A stretch of 64,000 bases of DNA from Rhizobium sp. FY34 (GTDB taxonomy: Bacteria > Pseudomonadota > Alphaproteobacteria > Rhizobiales > Rhizobiaceae). The position numbers and the translations under genes were made by a program. The notes under the pieces were generated by a model that was not told where the DNA came from, did no database searches, and saw only the letters and a list, made by a program, of their open reading frames with translations. The DNA lies in contig NZ_STFZ01000002.1 of assembly GCF_005222845.1 (NCBI RefSeq), positions 62,001-126,000 on the forward strand. Reading direction: 5' to 3'. Each line of letters starts with the position of its first letter. The first letter of the stretch is position 1. This document shows positions 24,513 to 36,250 of this stretch, one piece after another.

Positions 24513-24941
24513 TCACATGGCTTCGGCGCTGACCTCGACATTCGGGGTCAGCGTCAGCGTATTGCTCACCGTGCAGAGATCCTTTGCCAGCTTGCGGATC
24601 GCCTCGCGCTCCTCGTCTGAATAGTCGCCGGCGATCTTGATAACAGCGGTAATGGTTTCCACGCGCGACAGCCCGTCATGGGCTTTTTCGCCCGTCACAT
24701 GCGCCGTGACGCCCTCGAATCGTTCCACCATCTGCAGCTTGACCACCGCGCCCTTGACGCTGAGCACCAGGCAACTGGCAAGCGATGCATAGAGGAGATC
24801 GAGCGGGTTGAAGCCCGGTTCCGAGACGCTGGTAATCACATCCAGCATGCCGCCGGTCTCTGTCTTCAGGCTGGCATGGCCGCGCGCGGCCATCATGGCG
24901 GTCGCACCAGTCACACGCGTCTTCATTTTCAGTTCGACCAT
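24513..24941 (-). CDS. OsmC family peroxiredoxin-like protein
   Basis: A 142-residue OsmC/YhfA-type protein. The segment NPLDLLYASLASCLVLSV supplies one redox Cys and the C-terminal KDLCTVSNTLTLTPNV the second, the usual two-Cys arrangement for thiol-dependent hydroperoxide reduction. GGAGGT six bases upstream sets ATG 24941. It is convergent with the BON gene, with a 9-bp gap, so transcripts must overlap. Confidence 0.9.
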   Translation of the reverse strand: MVELKMKTRVTGATAMMAARGHASLKTETGGMLDVITSVSEPGFNPLDLLYASLASCLVLSVKGAVVKLQMVERFEGVTAHVTGEKAHDGLSRVETITAVIKIAGDYSDEEREAIRKLAKDLCTVSNTLTLTPNVEVSAEAM

Positions 24942-25123
24942 CTTTCTACCTCCAGCGTCGCACGCCCTTGGCGTACCGTCTCAGCAGGACAGCACATCTG
25001 CCTTAAGGAACAAATGATCCAGATGCTCAAACTGTTGCGGCCGCTTGCCGCAGCCGCGGTTCTTTGAGCACCAGACGAGCACCATAGACATTTTGTCCCT
25101 TGACGGGCAGCCGCCGGCGTCGC

Positions 25124-25141
25124 TATTTTAAACTTAAAATA
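25124..25141. promoter_or_regulatory. Perfect palindrome, candidate operator of the aryl-CoA operon
   Basis: TATTTTAAACTTAAAATA is a perfect inverted repeat of two 8-bp arms around AC. It stands out as AT-rich in a GC-rich intergenic region 45 bp upstream of the first gene. Size and form suit a MarR- or TetR-type repressor site. No such regulator gene is in the window. Confidence 0.55.
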
Positions 25142-25186: not shown

Positions 25187-27511
25187 ATGCGTATCGTTTG
25201 CATTGGCGGAGGCCCGGCCGGCCTCTACTTCGCGCTTTTGATGAAGAAGCTTTACCCCTCGCACCACATTCGCGTGGTGGAGCGCAACAAGCCCTATGAC
25301 ACATTCGGCTGGGGCGTCGTGTTTTCCGATGCCACCATGGTCTCCATGCAGGCCTGGGATCCTGACAGTGCCGCGGAAATCCGCCAGGCCTTCAATCACT
25401 GGGATGATATCGAGGTTCTGTTCAAGGGCACCCGCCAGCGCACATCCGGCCATGGTTTTGTCGGCATTGGCCGCAAGAAGCTGTTGAACATTCTACAGCG
25501 CCGCTGCGAGACGCTCGGTGTCGAGCTGATCTTCGAGGCCGATGTCGACAGTGACCTGGATTTCCCCGATGCCGACCTGATCATTGCAGCAGATGGGGTC
25601 AATTCCCGCATCCGCCAGAAATATGCCGATATCTTCGAGCCGGATATGGTGATCCGTCCAAACCGCTATATCTGGCTTGGCACGAACAAGCTTTTCGACG
25701 CTTTCACCTTCGATTTCCGCAGGACAGATCACGGCTGGTTCCAGGCGCATATCTATAAGTTCGACGAAAACACCTCGACCTTCATTATCGAGACGACGGA
25801 AGAGGCCTATCAGGCCCATAAGCTTGGCGAGCTTGACCAGCAGGGCTCCATCGATTTTTGCCAGGACCTGTTTTCCGAGGTGCTGGAAGGTTCACCTCTG
25901 ATGACCAATGCGCGCCATCTGCGCGGCTCGTCCTGGCTGAATTTCCAGCGGCTGATCTGCGGTAAGTGGAGCCATTTCAACGGCCAGAGCCATGTCGTGC
26001 TGATGGGCGATGCCGCGCATACGGCGCATTTCGCTATCGGTTCGGGCACGAAGCTTGCCATCGACGATGCAATCGAACTGGCCAACCAGTTCCAGAAGAT
26101 CGGCCACGACAAGGTAAGCATCCCGGCGGTGCTGGATGTCTATGAAGAGATCCGCCGCGTCGATGTCGCGCGCATCCAGAATGCTGCCCGCAATGCCATG
26201 GAATGGTTCGAAGTGGTGGGCACCCGCTATGCCGATACCCTGCCGCCGGAACAGTTCATGTATTCCATGCTGACGCGCTCACAGCGCATCAGCCACGAAA
26301 ACCTGCGTCTGCGCGACAAGACCTGGCTGGAGGGCTATGAGCGCTGGTTTGCCGAACAATCCGGCCTGACGGCGGGTAAGGACGGTGCGGTTCCGCCACC
26401 GATGTTCACGCCCTATACGGTGCGCGACGTGACACTTCCAAACCGTATCATCATGTCGCCAATGGCTATGTATTCGGCCAAAGACGGCTTGTTCGATGAT
26501 TTTCACCTGGTGCATCTGGGTGCCCGCGCTCTGGGTGGCGCAGGCCTCGTGTTTGCCGAAATGACCTGCGTTTCGCCCGACGCCCGCATTACCCCCGGAT
26601 GCCTTGGCCTGTGGAGCGATGAGCAGATCCCCGGCTGGAAGCGCTTTGTCGATTTCGTGCATACCAATAGTGCCGCCAAGGTGGGGATACAGCTCGGTCA
26701 TGCGGGCCGCAAGGGAGCCACCAAGCTTGCCTGGGAGGGCGCCGACCAGCCATTGGAAGAGGGTGCATGGCCACTTCTTTCGGCCTCCGCCCTGCCCTAT
26801 CTGAAAAACAGCACCGTCCCGAAAGCCATGGACCGCGCCGACATGGACCGGGTGAAAGCCGATTTCGTTTCCGCCACGCGGCGCGCTGCCGCAACCGGTG
26901 CCGACTGGCTGGAATTCCATGCAGCCCACGGCTATCTGCTGTCCGCCTTCCTGTCGCCGCTGACCAACCGGCGCGAGGACGAATATGGCGGCAGCCATGC
27001 GAACCGGGCACGCTATCCGCTTGAAGTGTTTGCAGCTGTTCGCGCGAACTGGCCTGACGATAAGCCGATATCGGTGCGCCTCTCCTGCCATGACTGGTTT
27101 GAGGGCGGCAATAGGCCCGAGGATGCGGCGATCTTTGCCTCCATGTTCAAGGACGCCGGCGCCGACGTGATCGACTGCTCGTCCGGCCAGGTGTGGAAGG
27201 AAGAGCAGCCCGTCTATGGGCGTCTGTTCCAGACGCCGTTTTCCGACAAGATCCGCAACGAAGTGGGCATTCCAACGATTGCGGTGGGGGCGATTTCCGA
27301 AGCCGACCACGCCAATTCGATCATTTCCGCCGGCCGTGCCGATCTCTGTGCCGTGGCGCGTCCGCATCTGGCAGATCCGGCCTGGGTGCTGCATGAGGCT
27401 GCAAAAATCGGGCTGACGTCCGTGCCATGGCCCAAGCAGTATTATTCCGGCAAGCGGCAGTATGAAACCAATCTTGCCCGTGCGGCACTGACCGCACCTG
27501 TGGCCAAGTAG
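25187..27511 (+). CDS. Bifunctional flavin monooxygenase / Old Yellow Enzyme fusion (2-aminobenzoyl-CoA or salicylyl-CoA type)
   Basis: A 774-residue fusion. Residues 1-390 form a UbiH/PHBH-like FAD monooxygenase ([10 protein letters not shown] at the N-terminus, [20 protein letters not shown] for the flavin/substrate site). From about 400 an NADPH-dependent Old Yellow Enzyme domain follows ([40 protein letters not shown]). This is the layout of Azoarcus evansii 2-aminobenzoyl-CoA monooxygenase/reductase and of proteins named salicylyl-CoA 5-hydroxylase; it hydroxylates and then reduces the CoA-bound aromatic ring. ATG 25187 follows AGGAAG. It is the first gene of a six-gene operon. Anthraniloyl- versus salicylyl-CoA cannot be decided. 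Confidence 0.92.
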
Positions 27512-27520
27512 GAGACGGAT

Positions 27521-28318
27521 ATGGCGAACACGTCCCGGCAGGCTCTGCACGGCCGCCATGCGCTTGTCACCGGTGCCGGATCCGGCATCGGTGCTGCCAT
27601 CGCATCGGCACTTGTCGAGGCAGGGGCGCATGTGACGCTTGCCGGCCGCCGGGCCGCACCGCTTGACGAGCTTGCGGACAGACTTGGTGCGCAACAATGC
27701 CTGGCGCTTCCAGGCTTTGACGTGACCGATCCTTCCGCCATTGCCACTGGTCTCGGCAGGGCGCGCTCCGCCTTTGGTCCTATCGAAATCCTCGTCAACA
27801 ATGCCGGTGAAGCACCGACGGCTTCGTTTGAGAAAACGACGCTGGAGATGTGGAACCATGTAATGGCGGTGGACCTGACCGGAGTGTTTTCGGTGACCCA
27901 GGCCGTTCTGGCCGATCTGAAAGCCAAGGGTGACGGCGCGCGCATCATCACCATCGCCTCCACCGCAGGCCTTACCGGCTATGCCTATGTCAGCGCCTAT
28001 TGCGCGGCAAAGCACGGCATTATCGGGCTGACGCGATCTCTGGCGCTGGAACTTGCGAAAACCGGCGTCACCGTCAATGCCGTGTGTCCGGGCTTTACCG
28101 ATACGCCGCTGGTGGCCCGCTCGCTCGACACGATCATGCAAAAGACCGGACGCAGCCAGGCCGAGGCGCTGCAGGAACTGACAAAGCACAATCCGCAAGG
28201 GCGGCTGGTGACGCCGGAGGAGGTCGCAGATACGGTTCTGTGGCTGGCGTCGCCCTCTGCCCGATCAATCACAGGACAGGCGATCGCGGTCGCCGGTGGG
28301 GAGGTATTTTCCGGATGA
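27521..28318 (+). CDS. SDR family NAD(P)-dependent oxidoreductase
   Basis: A 265-residue classical short-chain dehydrogenase. Cofactor motif TGAGSGIG near residue 18, NNAG near 90, catalytic Ser in IASTAG and YCAAKHG (Tyr-x3-Lys) near 160, and a C-terminal [17 protein letters not shown]. It starts 9 bp after the fusion gene and ends by overlapping the next start (ATGA), so it belongs to the aryl-CoA operon. It may oxidise a hydroxyacyl-CoA or ring-hydroxyl intermediate; this is inferred from position. Confidence 0.92.
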
Positions 28319-29169
28319 TCGACACCAAAGAGCCATCCATGGCATCGCACCTGAAACCCTTGAAGGACTACCAGGCGCAGCATTTCCTTTTCGAGGTAAG
28401 CGCGAATGGGCGGGTTGCCACCATACGCCTCAACCGGCCAGAGCGTAAGAACCCGCTGACCTTCGAGAGCTATGCCGAGTTGCGCGACCTGTTTCGCAAT
28501 CTCGCCTCAGCATCCGATGTGCGCGCCGTGGTTCTGACCGGTGCCGGCGGTAATTTCTCCTCCGGCGGCGATGTGTTCGAGATCATCGAACCGCTGACAA
28601 AGATGGCCATGCCGGATCTTCTGGCATTCACGCGCATGACCGGCGATCTGGTGAAGGCCATGCGCAAGTGCCCGCAGCCGATCATTGCCGCCGTCGATGG
28701 TATCTGCGCCGGCGCTGGTGCCATTCTGGCCATGGCATCCGATCTGCGGCTGGCAACGCCCGAGGCAAAGACCGCCTTTCTCTTCACCCGCGTTGGTCTT
28801 GCCGGCGCAGACATGGGCGCCTGCGGCCTTCTTCCGCGTATCATCGGCCAGGGCCGTGCCGCTGAACTTCTGTTGACCGGCCGCGCCATGAGCGCGACGG
28901 AAGGTCATGCCTGGGGCTTCTACAATGGCCTGCATTCACCCGAAACGCTGGAGGCTGAAGCGCTGGCGCTCGCCCATTCGCTGGCCGATGGCCCGTGGTT
29001 TGCCCATACGATGACCAAGACCATGCTGAACCAGGAATGGGCCATGGGCATTGAGGAACTGATCGAAGCGGAAGCCCAGGCGCAGGCGATTTGCATGGGA
29101 ACTCAGGATTTCCGGCGTGCCTTTGAAGCCTTTGCCGCAAAGCGCAAGCCGATCTTCGAGGGCAATTGA
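28315..29169 (+). CDS. Enoyl-CoA hydratase/isomerase family protein
   Basis: A 284-residue crotonase-fold enzyme. The first oxyanion-hole segment is [15 protein letters not shown], the second [18 protein letters not shown], then ARTPEAK-type sequence and the later [19 protein letters not shown]. The start is taken at ATG 28315, which overlaps the SDR stop as ATGA; ATG 28339 (MASHLKPLK) is a reasonable alternative. It probably hydrates or isomerises a ring-derived enoyl-CoA, or opens the ring, as in other CoA-dependent aromatic routes. Confidence 0.92.
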
Positions 29170-29171
29170 CC

Positions 29172-30347
29172 ATGGCCGCCCTCACCCCGCCGGGCCTTCC
29201 CAGCCGCGAGCATCTCGACTGGCCGTTCTTTGATGCAAGCCATAGACTGCTGACCGATAAACTCGATGCCTTTGCGGGCTCCGGCGCCCTCACCTCTATC
29301 GACCATCGGGATACGGACAGCGTGTGCCGCGCGCTGGTATCGGCGCTCGGACAGGCTGGATTGCTGGATGCGGCAACCGGTTCCGGCGGACGCGAGGCCA
29401 TCGACAGCCGCTCTGTCTGCCTGACGCGCGAAACGCTCGCCTATCACGACGGGCTTGCCGATTTCGCCTTTGCCATGCAAGGGCTCGGCACCGGTGCCAT
29501 CGGCCTGTCCGGTTCGGATGAGCTGAAGCGGGCGATATTGCCGAAGGCGCAAAGCGGCACCTGGATTTCGGCCTTTGCCCTTTCGGAAAAAGAGGCCGGT
29601 TCGGATGTCGCCGCGATGGCCTGCGCGGCACGGCGCGACGGCAACCATTTCGTTCTCGACGGGAGCAAGACCTGGATTTCCAATGGCGGCATTGCCGATG
29701 TCTATACGGTATTTGCCCGCACCGGCGAGGCGCCCGGCACACGCGGCATTTCCGCCTTCGTGGTGTTTGCCGATGATCCGGGTTTTTCCATCGAGGAACG
29801 CATCGATGTGATGGCCCCGCATCCGCTGGCGACCATCCGCTTCGACAATTGCCGCATTCCCGCCGATCGCCTGCTTGGTGCCCCCGGCGAAGGCTTCAAG
29901 ATCGCCATGCGCACGCTCGATATCTTTCGTGCCTCGGTGGCGGCAGCAGCGCTCGGCTTTGCCCGCCGGGCACTGGACGAGGCGCTGTCTTATGCAAAAG
30001 CGCGGCCGATGTTTGGCGCAAGGCTTGCCGATCTGCAATTGACCCAGGCCGCTTTCGGCGACATGGCAACCGATATCGATGCCGGCGCTCTCTTGACCTA
30101 CCGCGCCGCCTGGCGCCGCGATGTGCAGGGCCTGCCCACCACCAAGGAAGCCGCCATGGCCAAGATGACCGCGACCGAAAACGCCCAGCGGGTGATCGAT
30201 CGGGCGGTGCAGATGTTTGGCGGACGCGGCGTCCAGGTGGGCGAAATCACCGAAAAACTCTACCGCGAGATCCGGGCGTTGCGCATCTATGAGGGTGCGA
30301 CCGAAGTCCAGAAACTCATCATCGCCCGCGAACTCCTGAAGACCTGA
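29172..30347 (+). CDS. Acyl-CoA dehydrogenase
   Basis: A 391-residue FAD enzyme of the acyl-CoA dehydrogenase superfamily. Visible signatures are [36 protein letters not shown], the C-terminal [19 protein letters not shown] and the base-region [17 protein letters not shown]. It lies 2 bp after the hydratase; ATG 29172 is chosen over TTG 29166. Expected role: alpha,beta-dehydrogenation of an acyl-CoA intermediate after ring reduction, passing electrons to ETF. Substrate is inferred from the operon only. Confidence 0.94.
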
Positions 30348-30367
30348 CAGACCGGAGATTTCACCCC

Positions 30368-30763
30368 ATGCACACCATTCTGCAGCCCGAAGGCTGGGCC
30401 AAACCGATCGGTTATGCCAACGGCATCGCAGCCACAGGCCGCCAGGTCTATGTCGGCGGTCAGATCGGCTGGAACGGCCAATGCCAGTTCGAAAGCGACG
30501 ACCTCGTCGATCAGGCACGCCAGACGCTGGAAAACATCGTCGCGGTTCTGGCAGAGGCCGGTGCCCGCCCCGAGCACATTACGACGATGACCTGGTATTT
30601 TGTCGACAAGGCCGAATATCTCGCCAATCTGAAGGGCATAGGCCAGGCCTATCGTGAGGTGATTGGTCGGCATTACCCGGCCATGGCCGCCGTGCAGGTG
30701 GTGGCGCTGATGGAAGATCGGGCAAAGATCGAGATCCAGGCGATAGCCGTCATTCCCGAGTGA
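30368..30763 (+). CDS. Rid family protein without the RidA arginine
   Basis: A 131-residue YjgF/YER057c/UK114 family protein. In RidA enamine/imine deaminases an Arg lies in the PARSxV motif; here the corresponding text is HYPAMAAVQV with Met106, so canonical imine deaminase activity is doubtful. It lies within the aryl-CoA operon (20 bp after the dehydrogenase), where release of ammonia from an amino-cyclohexenone-CoA would be a fitting task. A Rid-like gene also accompanies the Azoarcus 2-aminobenzoate genes, which supports the anthranilate reading. Confidence 0.88.
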   Translation: MHTILQPEGWAKPIGYANGIAATGRQVYVGGQIGWNGQCQFESDDLVDQARQTLENIVAVLAEAGARPEHITTMTWYFVDKAEYLANLKGIGQAYREVIGRHYPAMAAVQVVALMEDRAKIEIQAIAVIPE

Positions 30764-30797
30764 CGACAGGCCGAGAGCATCACACAAGGATAGAACC

Positions 30798-32768
30798 ATG
30801 CCGCCCTTCACCTTTTCCGCCACGGTTTCCGGTCAGGTGACTAAGGGCGTGCTCATCGTTACGCTCGACAATCCGCCGGTCAATGCCGCCTCTGCCGATC
30901 TGCGTGCCGGACTGATGGCAGCCCTTGCCCACAGCACGGCAACCGCATCGATTTCAGGCATCGTCATCACGGCGGCGGGAAAGACATTCATCGGTGGCGC
31001 CGATATCCGCGAATTCGGCAAGCCGCCGGTCGATCCGATCCTTCCAGACGTGATTGCCGCCGTGGAAGCACATGAGAAGCCCGTGATCGCCGCGCTGAAT
31101 GGCGCAGCACTCGGCGGCGGGCTGGAAGTGGCGCTCGCCTGCCATCACCGCGTGGCGCTGTCCTCTGCTACAGTCGCCCTGCCGGAGGTGAAACTCGGCC
31201 TGGTGCCGGGTGCCGGCGGCACGCAGCGTCTGCCGCGCCTGATCGGCGCTTTGCCCGCACTCGACCTGATCAGCAGCGGCCGCACAATCAAGACTATCGA
31301 GGCAAAATCCCTCGGTTTGATCGATGAGGTTGTCGAGGCCGATCTCGTCATGACGGCCTGCGCCACGGCGCGGGCGCTGGCCGGCCAGTCTCTCAAGCGC
31401 ACAGGCATGCTTTCGCCGCCCGCCTTCGATGAGGCGGTCTTTGCCGAAGCCAGCGACAAGATCCTTGCCAAGGCGCGCGGCCAGAAAGCTCCAGCCGAGA
31501 TCATCCGCCTGGTGCGGCTTGCCGGCGAAACCCCGCTTGCCGAAGGTCTTGCAGAGGAGCGCAGCAGTTTTATCGCTTTGCGCGACGGCCCGCAAAGCAA
31601 GGCGCTGCGTCATGTGTTCTTTGCCGAACGCGAGGCGGGCAAGGTGGCAGGACTTGAAGGCATCGCCCCACGCCCGGTCGAAACCATCGCCATTGCGGGC
31701 CTTGGCCTGATGGGAAGCGGCATAGCCATGGCCGCCCTTGGCGCCGGCTACAGGGTAATCGGGCTCGACCGGACGCCGGAGGCCGCAGACGGTGGGCGCG
31801 CACGCATTCTGGCACTGATCGACAAGTCGGTGTCCAGCGGCAGGCTGGATCGCGATGCCGCCGACGCACAGATCGCAAACCTTTCGGTGACTGCCAGTGA
31901 TGCCGATCTCGCCCCGGCAGATCTGGTGATCGAGGCGGTGTTCGATGATCTGGCCGTCAAGATCGACCTTTTCCAGCGGTTGGACACAGTGCTGCGCCCG
32001 GATGCGATTCTCGCCACCAATACCAGCTATCTGAACCCCGACGAGATTGCTGCGGCGACCGCGCATCCGGAGCGGGTTCTCGGCCTGCATTTCTTTTCGC
32101 CAGCGCATGTCATGCGGCTTCTGGAAGTGGTGCGCTGCGAAAAAACCGCGCCGGACGTACTGGCGACCGGTTTTGCGCTGGCCAGGCGCCTGAAGAAACT
32201 GGCCGTGGCCACCGGCGTGACCGAAGGCTTTATCGGCAACCGGATTTTTTCCGCCTATCGTCGCGAAGCGGAATATCTCATCGAGGACGGCGCTCTGCCG
32301 CACGAGATCGATCAGGCGCTGGAGGCCTATGGCTTTCCGATGGGCCTGTTTGCCGTCTATGACATGGCAGGCCTCGAAATTGCCTGGGCACGCCGCAAGC
32401 GCCAGGCCACAAGCCGTGATCCGGCGGAACGCTATGTCGAGATCGCCGATCGCCTCTGCGAGGCGCAGCGATTCGGCCAGAAGGCCGGTCGCGGCTGGTA
32501 TCGCTATGACAGTGGCAAACGCGCGGCCGATCCCGAGGTCACCGCCATCATAGAGGCCTGCCGGGCCGCAAAGGGCATTGTGCCGCGCTCCTTCACGCAG
32601 AGCGAGATCATCGCGCGCATGCTTGCCGCCATGGCAGCCGAAGGCCGGGCGCTGCTTGCCGAAGGCATTGCGGCGCGCGCCAGCGATGTGGATCTGGTGA
32701 TGATCAACGGCTATGGTTTCCCCGCCCATAGAGGCGGCCCGATGTTTGCGGCAGATCTCTCCGGCTGA
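30798..32768 (+). CDS. Enoyl-CoA hydratase / 3-hydroxyacyl-CoA dehydrogenase fusion
   Basis: A 656-residue FadB/PaaH-like multifunctional protein. N-terminal crotonase domain (1-200: FIGGADIREFG, ALGGGLEVALACHHRVA, PEVKLGLVPGAGGTQRLPR). From about 295, the Rossmann domain (IAGLGLMGSGIAMAALGAGY, NTSYLNPDEIA, GLHFFSPAHVMRLLEVV) and two C-terminal 3HCDH domains (GFIGNRIFSAYRREAEYLIE, INGYGFPAHRGGPM). It hydrates and then oxidises acyl-CoA intermediates to 3-ketoacyl-CoA. It is the last gene of the operon; no thiolase follows. Confidence 0.94.
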   Translation: MPPFTFSATVSGQVTKGVLIVTLDNPPVNAASADLRAGLMAALAHSTATASISGIVITAAGKTFIGGADIREFGKPPVDPILPDVIAAVEAHEKPVIAALNGAALGGGLEVALACHHRVALSSATVALPEVKLGLVPGAGGTQRLPRLIGALPALDLISSGRTIKTIEAKSLGLIDEVVEADLVMTACATARALAGQSLKRTGMLSPPAFDEAVFAEASDKILAKARGQKAPAEIIRLVRLAGETPLAEGLAEERSSFIALRDGPQSKALRHVFFAEREAGKVAGLEGIAPRPVETIAIAGLGLMGSGIAMAALGAGYRVIGLDRTPEAADGGRARILALIDKSVSSGRLDRDAADAQIANLSVTASDADLAPADLVIEAVFDDLAVKIDLFQRLDTVLRPDAILATNTSYLNPDEIAAATAHPERVLGLHFFSPAHVMRLLEVVRCEKTAPDVLATGFALARRLKKLAVATGVTEGFIGNRIFSAYRREAEYLIEDGALPHEIDQALEAYGFPMGLFAVYDMAGLEIAWARRKRQATSRDPAERYVEIADRLCEAQRFGQKAGRGWYRYDSGKRAADPEVTAIIEACRAAKGIVPRSFTQSEIIARMLAAMAAEGRALLAEGIAARASDVDLVMINGYGFPAHRGGPMFAADLSG

Positions 32769-35230: not shown

Positions 35231-35317
35231 GGGCCAGGCGTACCGCCACTCGTCAGGCACGCCTTGTGCAACCACCCTTGCCTGTGGTTGAACGGACCTC
35301 CACAGAAAGCATCAAAC

Positions 35318-36250
35318 ATGTCCTCATCCTTCGGACCCTCACCCGCTGCCTCGACCGACAGTTCCGTGAAGGGCATGGCACTGATGGCGGGTTGCATGGT
35401 CGTGCTGCCGATGATGGACGCGATTGCCAAATACATGGCGACGTTTGAGACCATGTCGCCCGGCCAGGTGACCTTCTACCGCTTTCTCGTGCAACTGGTG
35501 GTGCTGGCGCCGCTGTTCTTCTGGACGGTCGGCAGTTTTTCCAAGGTTCGCCGCCCCTGGATGAACATGCTGCGCGGCGCGCTGCATGCCAGCGCCAGCC
35601 TGATGTTCTTTACTGCCGTCAAATACATGCCGCTCGCGGATGTCTTTGCCATCTATTTCGTAGAGCCCTTCATGCTGACGATCATGTCGGCGCTGTTTTT
35701 GGGCGACAAGGTCGGCTGGCGGCGGTGGCTTGCCATTCTTGTGGGCTTCGGCGGGGCGATGATCGTTATCCAGCCGAGCTTCGAGATTTTTGGCTGGACC
35801 TCGCTTCTGCCTATCGCCTGCGCCTTTCTGTTCACGCTCTACCTCTTTCTCAACCGGGCGCTGGGCGATGCCGATTCGCCGCTCACCATGCAGATGATGT
35901 CAGGCGTTGGCGGCACGGCGCTGATGGCGGTCGTACTGGTTGCCGGACACATGGCCGGTATGACGGATTTCGAAATGTCGCTACCGGCCTCTTCGCTGGG
36001 TATCGTGCTGCTGCTGATCCTCGGCTCGCTGTCCGGCTATGTGCATCTGCTGGTGGTACGGGCCTTCCGCATGGCCTCGGTGTCGCTTCTGGCGCCTTTC
36101 CAGTATTTCGAGATCATTTCGGCCACCGTGCTCGGCTACCTGCTGTTTTCCGATTTCCCCACGCCGTCCAAATGGTTGGGCATTGCCATCATCGTGGCAT
36201 CCGGCCTTTTCATCATCTGGCGCGAGCGGGTGCGCAGCCGCATGGCCTGA
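35318..36250 (+). CDS. DMT-superfamily (EamA) transporter
   Basis: A 310-residue membrane protein with about ten helices arranged as two EamA repeats. The first repeat includes GQVTFYRFLVQLVVLAPLFFW and the ADVFAIYFVEPFMLTIMSA element; the second ends with LAPFQYFEIISATVLGYLLF and WLGIAIIVASGLFIIWRE, both typical. It is an inner-membrane exporter of a small metabolite that I cannot identify. It starts 87 bp after lipB. Confidence 0.9.
   Translation: MSSSFGPSPAASTDSSVKGMALMAGCMVVLPMMDAIAKYMATFETMSPGQVTFYRFLVQLVVLAPLFFWTVGSFSKVRRPWMNMLRGALHASASLMFFTAVKYMPLADVFAIYFVEPFMLTIMSALFLGDKVGWRRWLAILVGFGGAMIVIQPSFEIFGWTSLLPIACAFLFTLYLFLNRALGDADSPLTMQMMSGVGGTALMAVVLVAGHMAGMTDFEMSLPASSLGIVLLLILGSLSGYVHLLVVRAFRMASVSLLAPFQYFEIISATVLGYLLFSDFPTPSKWLGIAIIVASGLFIIWRERVRSRMA

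Follow-up and report, generated by a model that had tools for sequence, protein, structure and literature searches.

An apparent anthraniloyl-CoA dearomatisation operon in Rhizobium sp. FY34, its unlinked ligase and a putative operator shared with indole and isatin genes

The window analysed here comprises 64,000 nucleotides of the genome of Rhizobium sp. FY34 (contig NZ_STFZ01000002.1, positions 62,001 to 126,000; labelled C18 below, where C11, C9, C6 and C36 are other contigs of the same genome). It carries a run of six open reading frames (ORFs) on one strand (+, window positions 25187–32768), which is free of internal stops and has gene spacing ranging from 4-base overlaps up to 34 bp. The first gene (25187–27511, 774 aa) encodes a fusion of a flavin adenine dinucleotide (FAD) monooxygenase with an Old Yellow Enzyme, of the anthraniloyl-coenzyme A (CoA) monooxygenase/reductase type (Pfam FAD_binding_3 and Oxidored_FMN). 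It is followed by a short-chain dehydrogenase (SDR; 27521–28318, 265 aa, adh_short_C2), which adjoins the fusion in most relatives compared, and by a crotonase-family protein (28315–29169, with ATG at 28315) that scores 483.5 bits against NF006107 (cut-off 330) and whose nearest solved structure is 3g64, an uncharacterised enoyl-CoA hydratase. An acyl-CoA dehydrogenase with Acyl-CoA_dh domains (29166–30347, TTG start, next ATG at 29172), a Rid-family enamine/imine deaminase (30368–30763, 131 aa, Ribonuc_L-PSP) and a FadB-like fusion of enoyl-CoA hydratase and 3-hydroxyacyl-CoA dehydrogenase (30798–32768, 656 aa; ECH_1, 3HCDH_N and 3HCDH) complete the set. The SDR, dehydrogenase, Rid and FadB-like proteins match their superfamilies, mostly under the NCBIfam cut-offs. 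An initial annotation of the window had described six tightly spaced genes with these domains, and the ORF, Pfam and NCBIfam results agree. Because the same gene set recurs in the same order in many relatives, the arrangement is not due to chance, and the six-gene operon is confirmed as real. In a relative from the same genus (G047), a thioesterase-like gene lies between the dehydrogenase and Rid genes (L085:12914–13348); it is absent from the window (30347–30368).

The fusion scores 1328.9 bits against the NCBIfam family NF006101 (cut-off 1078), named bifunctional salicylyl-CoA 5-hydroxylase/oxidoreductase, and is 48.6% identical over 774 positions to the fusion encoded on plasmid pAL1 of Arthrobacter sp. 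Rue61a (NC_009453), which carries the same name. Among 199 genomes sampled from the family to which the strain belongs, 106 encode a fusion above this cut-off, while in a sample of 388 genomes from the phylum a match at E 1e-180 or better was found in 67 and exceeded the cut-off in 61. Fusions were divided at 1325 bits into clades A and B, a working label that is supported by the tree for the sampled rows. In this tree of 55 fusions (56 were extracted and one duplicate from G160 was omitted; partial fusions with fewer than 690 aligned positions were left out), the window's fusion falls within a 39-row clade with support of 100/100 that contains all 30 clade A loci fetched, its closest rows being G113 and G092. 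The G047 fusion has the fusions of Neorhizobium alkalisoli and Rhizobium sp. CF080 as its neighbours in the tree, which makes Neorhizobium or a close relative the probable source of the window. The pAL1 fusion forms a long branch whose exact place is unsure. A third fusion clade, represented at L090 and L091 (G020 and G002), scores about 1000–1050 bits, below the NF006101 cut-off, and is 44%–46% identical to the fusion of the window; an isatin hydrolase gene lies nearby in some genomes.

The initial annotation had also noted that the window lacks a CoA ligase, a thiolase and a transporter, and had proposed that activation is supplied elsewhere. Both points were borne out: none of the 15 AMP-ligase matches and none of the 10 Thiolase_N matches in the genome lies on C18, no aromatic-acid transporter was seen in the window when its ORF list was read by eye, and a ligase and a likely transporter (both on C11) and a thiolase candidate (C6) were recovered by searching the genome. 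The product of the ligase gene (C11:90111–91718) shares 51% identity with the anthranilate-CoA ligase of pAL1 (537 positions, 514 bits), and the next-best AMP-ligase of the strain reaches 28% and 134 bits. The pAL1 ligase gene adjoins the pAL1 fusion gene, and from this gene order it follows that the query is ARUE_113p00220, for which anthranilate activity has been reported (PMC3534580). Among solved relatives, the C11 ligase is closest to the anthranilate-CoA ligase 4wv3 (283 bits) and then to the benzoate-CoA ligase 2v7b (276 bits). Two further candidates, L018 (C31, beside a MarR gene) and L010 (C37), were set aside at 28%–29% identity to the pAL1 ligase. On sequence comparison, the ligase is unlinked to the operon, not absent.

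Directly 3' of the C11 ligase gene, reading by eye identified genes for a binding protein, two permeases and two ATPases, which likely encode a HAAT-type transporter (an ATP-binding cassette, or ABC, transporter of the branched-chain/aromatic type by eye). The order in G121 is fusion, SDR, a MarR-like ORF, crotonase, dehydrogenase, ligase, binding protein, permease, permease, ATPase and ATPase, with a ligase 80% and transporter proteins 66%–83% identical to the C11 set. The MarR-like ORF of this clade B operon occupies L087:10572–11111, and none is found at that place in the window. Ligase orthologues (at least 70% identity) were detected in 92 of the 106 family genomes whose fusion exceeds the cut-off versus 5 of the 93 others (Fisher p 2e-34), and all five of the latter hold a below-cut-off fusion. 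No more than 12 kb separates the ligase gene from the fusion in 56 of 66 clade B genomes, as against 7 of 40 in clade A. In G071, a PcaF-like thiolase gene directly follows the FadB-like gene; its product is 66% identical to that of an FY34 gene (C6:234060), which is a candidate for the pathway.

Anthranilate arises from the breakdown of tryptophan, indole and the plant hormone auxin. In G046, ligase and Rid genes are followed by genes for kynureninase (265.7 bits, cut-off 246.4) and tryptophan 2,3-dioxygenase (415.1 bits, cut-off 390.7), and FY34 encodes a kynureninase above the NCBIfam cut-off on C36, with a tryptophan-dioxygenase-like gene recognised by eye beside it. The substrate had been proposed to be anthranilate or salicylate, as a CoA thioester. 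The first option gained support and the second was weakened, because the ligase resembles that of pAL1, kynureninase and tryptophan dioxygenase are linked to the pathway in relatives, and a Rid protein suits an amino substrate. Salicyloyl-CoA as the substrate, with the fusion acting as a salicylyl-CoA 5-hydroxylase, would accord with the name of NF006101, whose cut-off the fusion exceeds. This label is an annotation, however, and also covers the pAL1 protein, whose gene adjoins that of a ligase for which anthranilate activity has been shown. The Rid, kynureninase and isatin hydrolase links suit an amino, not a hydroxy, substrate, and the leading ligase candidate is similar to anthranilate-CoA ligases. 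We thus regard salicyloyl-CoA as a very improbable substrate, and the NF006101 label is probably misleading for these operons. Judged by these comparisons, the locus most likely belongs to a known kind of operon, one for the dearomatisation of anthraniloyl-CoA.

In the proposed pathway, the fusion would oxygenate and reduce anthraniloyl-CoA to 2-amino-5-oxocyclohex-1-ene-1-carbonyl-CoA, the reported product of the Azoarcus evansii enzyme (PMC4539516, PMC3534580). The SDR is the proposed reducer of the ring ketone, and the Rid protein may help to hydrolyse the enamine/imine to the 2-oxo acyl-CoA, releasing the amino group as ammonia. The crotonase, a proposed ring hydrolase or hydratase, would open the ring, after which the acyl-CoA dehydrogenase and the FadB-like fusion would perform beta-oxidation and an unlinked thiolase would finish it; the order of the SDR, crotonase, dehydrogenase and FadB-like steps is presumptive. 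Rue61a cells on anthranilate have been reported to contain a C7H8O4 CoA ester that is perhaps cyclohexanedione-carboxyl-CoA (PMC3534580); its presence is consistent with the step suggested for Rid, deamination by hydrolysis. A variant lower pathway, in which genes near the fusion for an SDR, a thioesterase, Rid, an FAH-family hydrolase and a second SDR replace the crotonase, dehydrogenase and FadB-like genes, was detected by tblastn at L074, L075, L076 and L078 (G102, G163, G187 and G023), L233 (Devosia limi) and L096 (pAL1); not every part is present in every locus, and the flanks of L233 show no fusion.

A perfect palindrome, TATTTTAANNTTAAAATA (TATTTTAA-AC-TTAAAATA), lies 45 bp upstream of the fusion start (25124–25141) and is a putative operator. 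It is the sole match with up to three mismatches in the 64-kb window, where shuffles lead one to expect 0.02. A promoter-like TTGACG-18-TATTTT (25100–25129, +), the second hexamer of which overlaps the palindrome, is a weak candidate: the region holds two promoter-like sites against a chance mean of 2.1, and neither promoter nor terminator scans rose above chance. Elsewhere in the genome, copies of the palindrome occur 143 bp before the C11 ligase gene, 66 bp before an IorA gene on C9 and 33 bp before a flavin reductase gene that heads the indole-oxygenase genes on C9. As a control, 947 kb of other FY34 sequence contained one match with up to three mismatches, inside a coding ORF, and dinucleotide shuffles of the 200-bp stretches upstream of the ligase, IorA and flavin reductase genes matched equally well in 11, 19 and 1 of 5000 cases, respectively.

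The C9 locus (L097, L094) encodes a flavoprotein, an SDR, the flavin reductase, an AndR-like regulator (154 bits, cut-off 350), IorA, IorB, a MarR protein, two CrtI-like FAD proteins and an isatin hydrolase. The flavoprotein matches the solved chain 7z4x (595 bits), which we take to be an indole monooxygenase, and the isatin hydrolase matches 4j0n (423 bits). IorA and IorB (L094:9896–13609, on a contig other than that of the window) match indolepyruvate oxidoreductase families, although IorA misses the TIGR03336 equivalog cut-off (274 versus 650.9 bits). IorA has a thiamine pyrophosphate (TPP) domain, a GDG motif and seven cysteines (iron-sulfur, Fe-S), with motif and cysteines invariant in ten aligned sequences. 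The second-best solved match of the MarR protein is 7kym (105 bits), a MarR structure deposited as part of a study of an auxin locus (PMC9613470).

In relatives, where the palindrome was counted within 250 bp upstream of genes at loci that were not deduplicated, it precedes 19 of 25 fusions, 6 of 10 ligases, 5 of 8 flavin reductases, 6 of 8 AndR-like genes and 21 of 39 genes for peptide-type binding proteins adjoining IorA, as well as 2 of 36 FADox2 genes and none of 4 indole monooxygenases. These positions suggest a scattered regulon, in which degenerate palindromes before the C11 ligase/transporter operon, the C9 IorAB genes and the C9 indole-oxygenase operon would join these genes to the window. 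The MarR protein encoded beside IorAB and the isatin hydrolase may be the likeliest repressor, which is a guess. We consider it likely, on this genomic evidence, that the window operon is the lower pathway of aerobic anthranilate breakdown as the CoA ester and forms one arm of this regulon. Several observations weigh against this interpretation. The three unlinked palindrome sites in FY34 each carry three mismatches, and in relatives the palindrome precedes just 17 of 122 IorA genes, 3 of 44 isatin hydrolase genes and none of 10 MarR and 48 FADox1 genes. The C11 ligase is closest to the NCBIfam benzoate-CoA ligase family TIGR02262, just under its cut-off (366.6 versus 375.25 bits). Moreover, 14 of the 106 fusion genomes have no ligase at 70% identity or more (11 have none at any grade searched), and the Fisher tests ignore kinship among genomes.

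A further point concerns specificity, since the clade of the window's fusion is separate from the linked-ligase clade (about 54%–55% identity), a distance sufficient for a specificity shift. The operon could thus serve different or wider ortho-substituted benzoyl-CoA esters, with anthranilate as one substrate among them. Retention of the same ligase orthologue in 30 of 40 clade A genomes, and of IorA in 24 of the 40, makes this unlikely.

Assignment to anthranilate breakdown agrees with several described systems. The 2-aminobenzoyl-CoA pathway of Azoarcus evansii shares a monooxygenase/reductase of the expected kind, ligase-formed anthraniloyl-CoA and downstream beta-oxidation enzymes, as described in PMC4539516 and PMC3534580, whereas in FY34 the ligase is unlinked and apparently tied to the operon by the shared operator; this comparison is by description, not sequence. 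The kinship with such enzymes that the initial annotation had drawn for the fusion is upheld by its relative on pAL1, next to an assayed anthranilate-CoA ligase, and by the tree. Besides the fusion and ligase, pAL1 shares a RidA protein (39% identical) encoded near both, but has FAH-hydrolase, cupin and thioesterase genes in place of the crotonase, dehydrogenase and FadB-like genes of the window. In the indole degrader Cupriavidus sp. SHE, a 2-aminobenzoyl-CoA cluster is reported to be vital for anthranilate degradation (Qu et al. 2017, cited in PMC6221969), and the account of it in that review mentions no operator or IorAB link.

Isatin hydrolase produces isatinate (2-aminophenylglyoxylate), an aryl 2-oxoacid; isatinic acid has the formula C8H7NO3. 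TPP/Fe-S 2-oxoacid oxidoreductases make acyl-CoA from 2-oxoacids, and phenylglyoxylate oxidoreductase, which gives benzoyl-CoA, is a precedent. Since IorA has the motifs of a 2-oxoacid oxidoreductase and isatinate is an aryl 2-oxoacid, anthraniloyl-CoA would be the expected product. We propose, giving this about an even chance, that IorAB oxidatively decarboxylates isatinate with CoA straight to anthraniloyl-CoA, the ring of which would then be broken by the products of the window operon. A suggestion of the initial annotation, that the substrate arrives as a CoA ester, may hold in part through this route. The reaction from isatinate to anthraniloyl-CoA is stated in no title or abstract found among open-licence PMC papers.

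IorA (E 1e-150) was detected in 65 of the 199 family genomes, all of which have the fusion (cut by a contig end in G089, 818 bits), compared with 51 of the 134 others (p 1.8e-20). All 57 genomes with an isatin hydrolase of at least 60% identity have IorA (p 1.4e-41), and the two genes lie within 12 kb of each other in 50 of 59 cases; eight IorA genomes lack an isatin hydrolase at this identity, four of which hold a relative at 51%–54%. In the phylum sample, the fusion accompanies IorA of at least 60% identity in 24 of 24 genomes versus 43 of 364 others, and outside the strain's own family in 13 of 13 versus 43 of 359 (p 5.6e-12), at a 60% cut that was picked with the list already in view; when the cut is dropped, the fusion is present in 26 of 28 genomes with IorA. 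Exceptions in this sample are G332 and G398 (IorA at 54%–55%, no fusion), G430 (isatin hydrolase without IorA or fusion), G517 (isatin hydrolase and fusion without IorA), and G217 and G454 (IorA without isatin hydrolase). Eleven fusion genomes of the family have no ligase match at E 1e-100, of which 10 carry both IorA and isatin hydrolase and one (G196) carries neither; among the 95 ligase-bearing fusion genomes, IorA occurs in 49 (p 0.02) and isatin hydrolase in 42 (p 0.004).

Gene order also connects IorAB to the ring-breaking genes. IorA, IorB, TE and the fusion follow one another on the same strand in G487, with gaps of 48, 30 and 116 bp, while in G418 gaps of 23 and 22 bp separate IorB, TE and the fusion, and IorA lies 1.4 kb further upstream. 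On one strand of G160, genes for isatin hydrolase, FADox1, MarR, IorA and IorB are followed, after 1.0 kb, by the entire ring-breaking operon, and in Rhizobium tropici PTD1 the fusion, ligase and IorAB genes are neighbours. Against a role of IorAB as the entry point, a fusion of at least 40% identity lies in the flanks of just 15 of 57 named IorA loci of at least 20 kb (isatin hydrolase, 44 of 57), and no fusion is seen there for the iad loci of Achromobacter and Variovorax. A 22-kb stretch of Zoogloeaceae bacterium G21618-S1 (L213) holds a fusion, an AndR-like gene, an indole-monooxygenase-like gene, two isatin hydrolase-like genes and IorAB.

The unlinked ligase may instead make all anthraniloyl-CoA, with IorAB an upper-pathway enzyme that converts, for example, indolepyruvate to indoleacetyl-CoA, an explanation that we hold to be a serious possibility of slightly under even probability. 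That IorAB would co-occur with the fusion just because indole and auxin degraders must dispose of anthranilate is a conjecture to which we give the same somewhat cautious credence. It would suit the families that IorA and IorB match and the presence of IorA in about half (49/95) of the ligase-bearing fusion genomes, and Variovorax carrying iadC-K2 without iadA forms free anthranilate (PMC12633357). Yet IorA falls far under the indolepyruvate equivalog cut-off, and it is found in every family genome with an isatin hydrolase of at least 60% identity (57/57) and in 10 of the 11 fusion genomes that yielded no ligase match. The arrangement in G487 also speaks for the direct route, as does the own C9 locus, with its indole-monooxygenase-like gene and no Rieske auxin oxygenase seen there by eye.

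The C9 locus shares IorA/IorB (= IadA/IadB), isatin hydrolase-like and MarR genes with the iad loci of Variovorax, Achromobacter and Bradyrhizobium, for which isatin and isatinic acid are given as intermediates; in the cited passages on those loci, by contrast, anthranilic acid is the end product and IadAB is given no step (PMC9613470, PMC12633357, PMC11630574). The iad loci also have a Rieske oxygenase, IadDE, whereas none was noticed by eye in the 50 kb around IorA on C9, no genome-wide search having been made. Conversion of isatinate to anthraniloyl-CoA would also explain IadAB, with free anthranilate as a side product, a reading that in our view could equally well prove right or wrong. A Variovorax iad-locus mutant lacks genes 77-53, which include iadA (gene 72) and iadC (gene 70) (PMC9613470), and with iadC-K2 alone it accumulates C8H7NO3 and C7H7NO (PMC12633357). 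The build-up of C8H7NO3 without iadA fits a missing consumer of isatinate. On the other side, the authors read both compounds as intermediates toward anthranilic acid, and in that strain anthranilic acid is restored in full (PMC12633357); hence, IadAB is not needed for forming free anthranilate.

What is new here is the scattered regulon, as predicted from the shared operator, and the proposal that isatinate enters the pathway through IorAB. A review on how indole is degraded raises two questions, namely which genes break down anthranilate during the process and whether isatin is genuinely an intermediate (PMC6221969). The operator and co-occurrence data join isatin hydrolase, IorAB, the ligase and the ring-breaking operon in one testable scheme, which predicts a reaction for IorAB, a gene pair that serves to mark bacteria capable of degrading auxin.

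The window operon is preceded by a divergent OsmC-family gene (24513–24941) with no sign of pathway membership, and a DMT/EamA-like permease is encoded downstream, at 35264–36250. On another FY34 contig (C3, about 98.8–135.2 kb), six AMP-binding matches lie in or beside very long frames (up to 2584 aa), which suggests a non-ribosomal peptide synthetase cluster.

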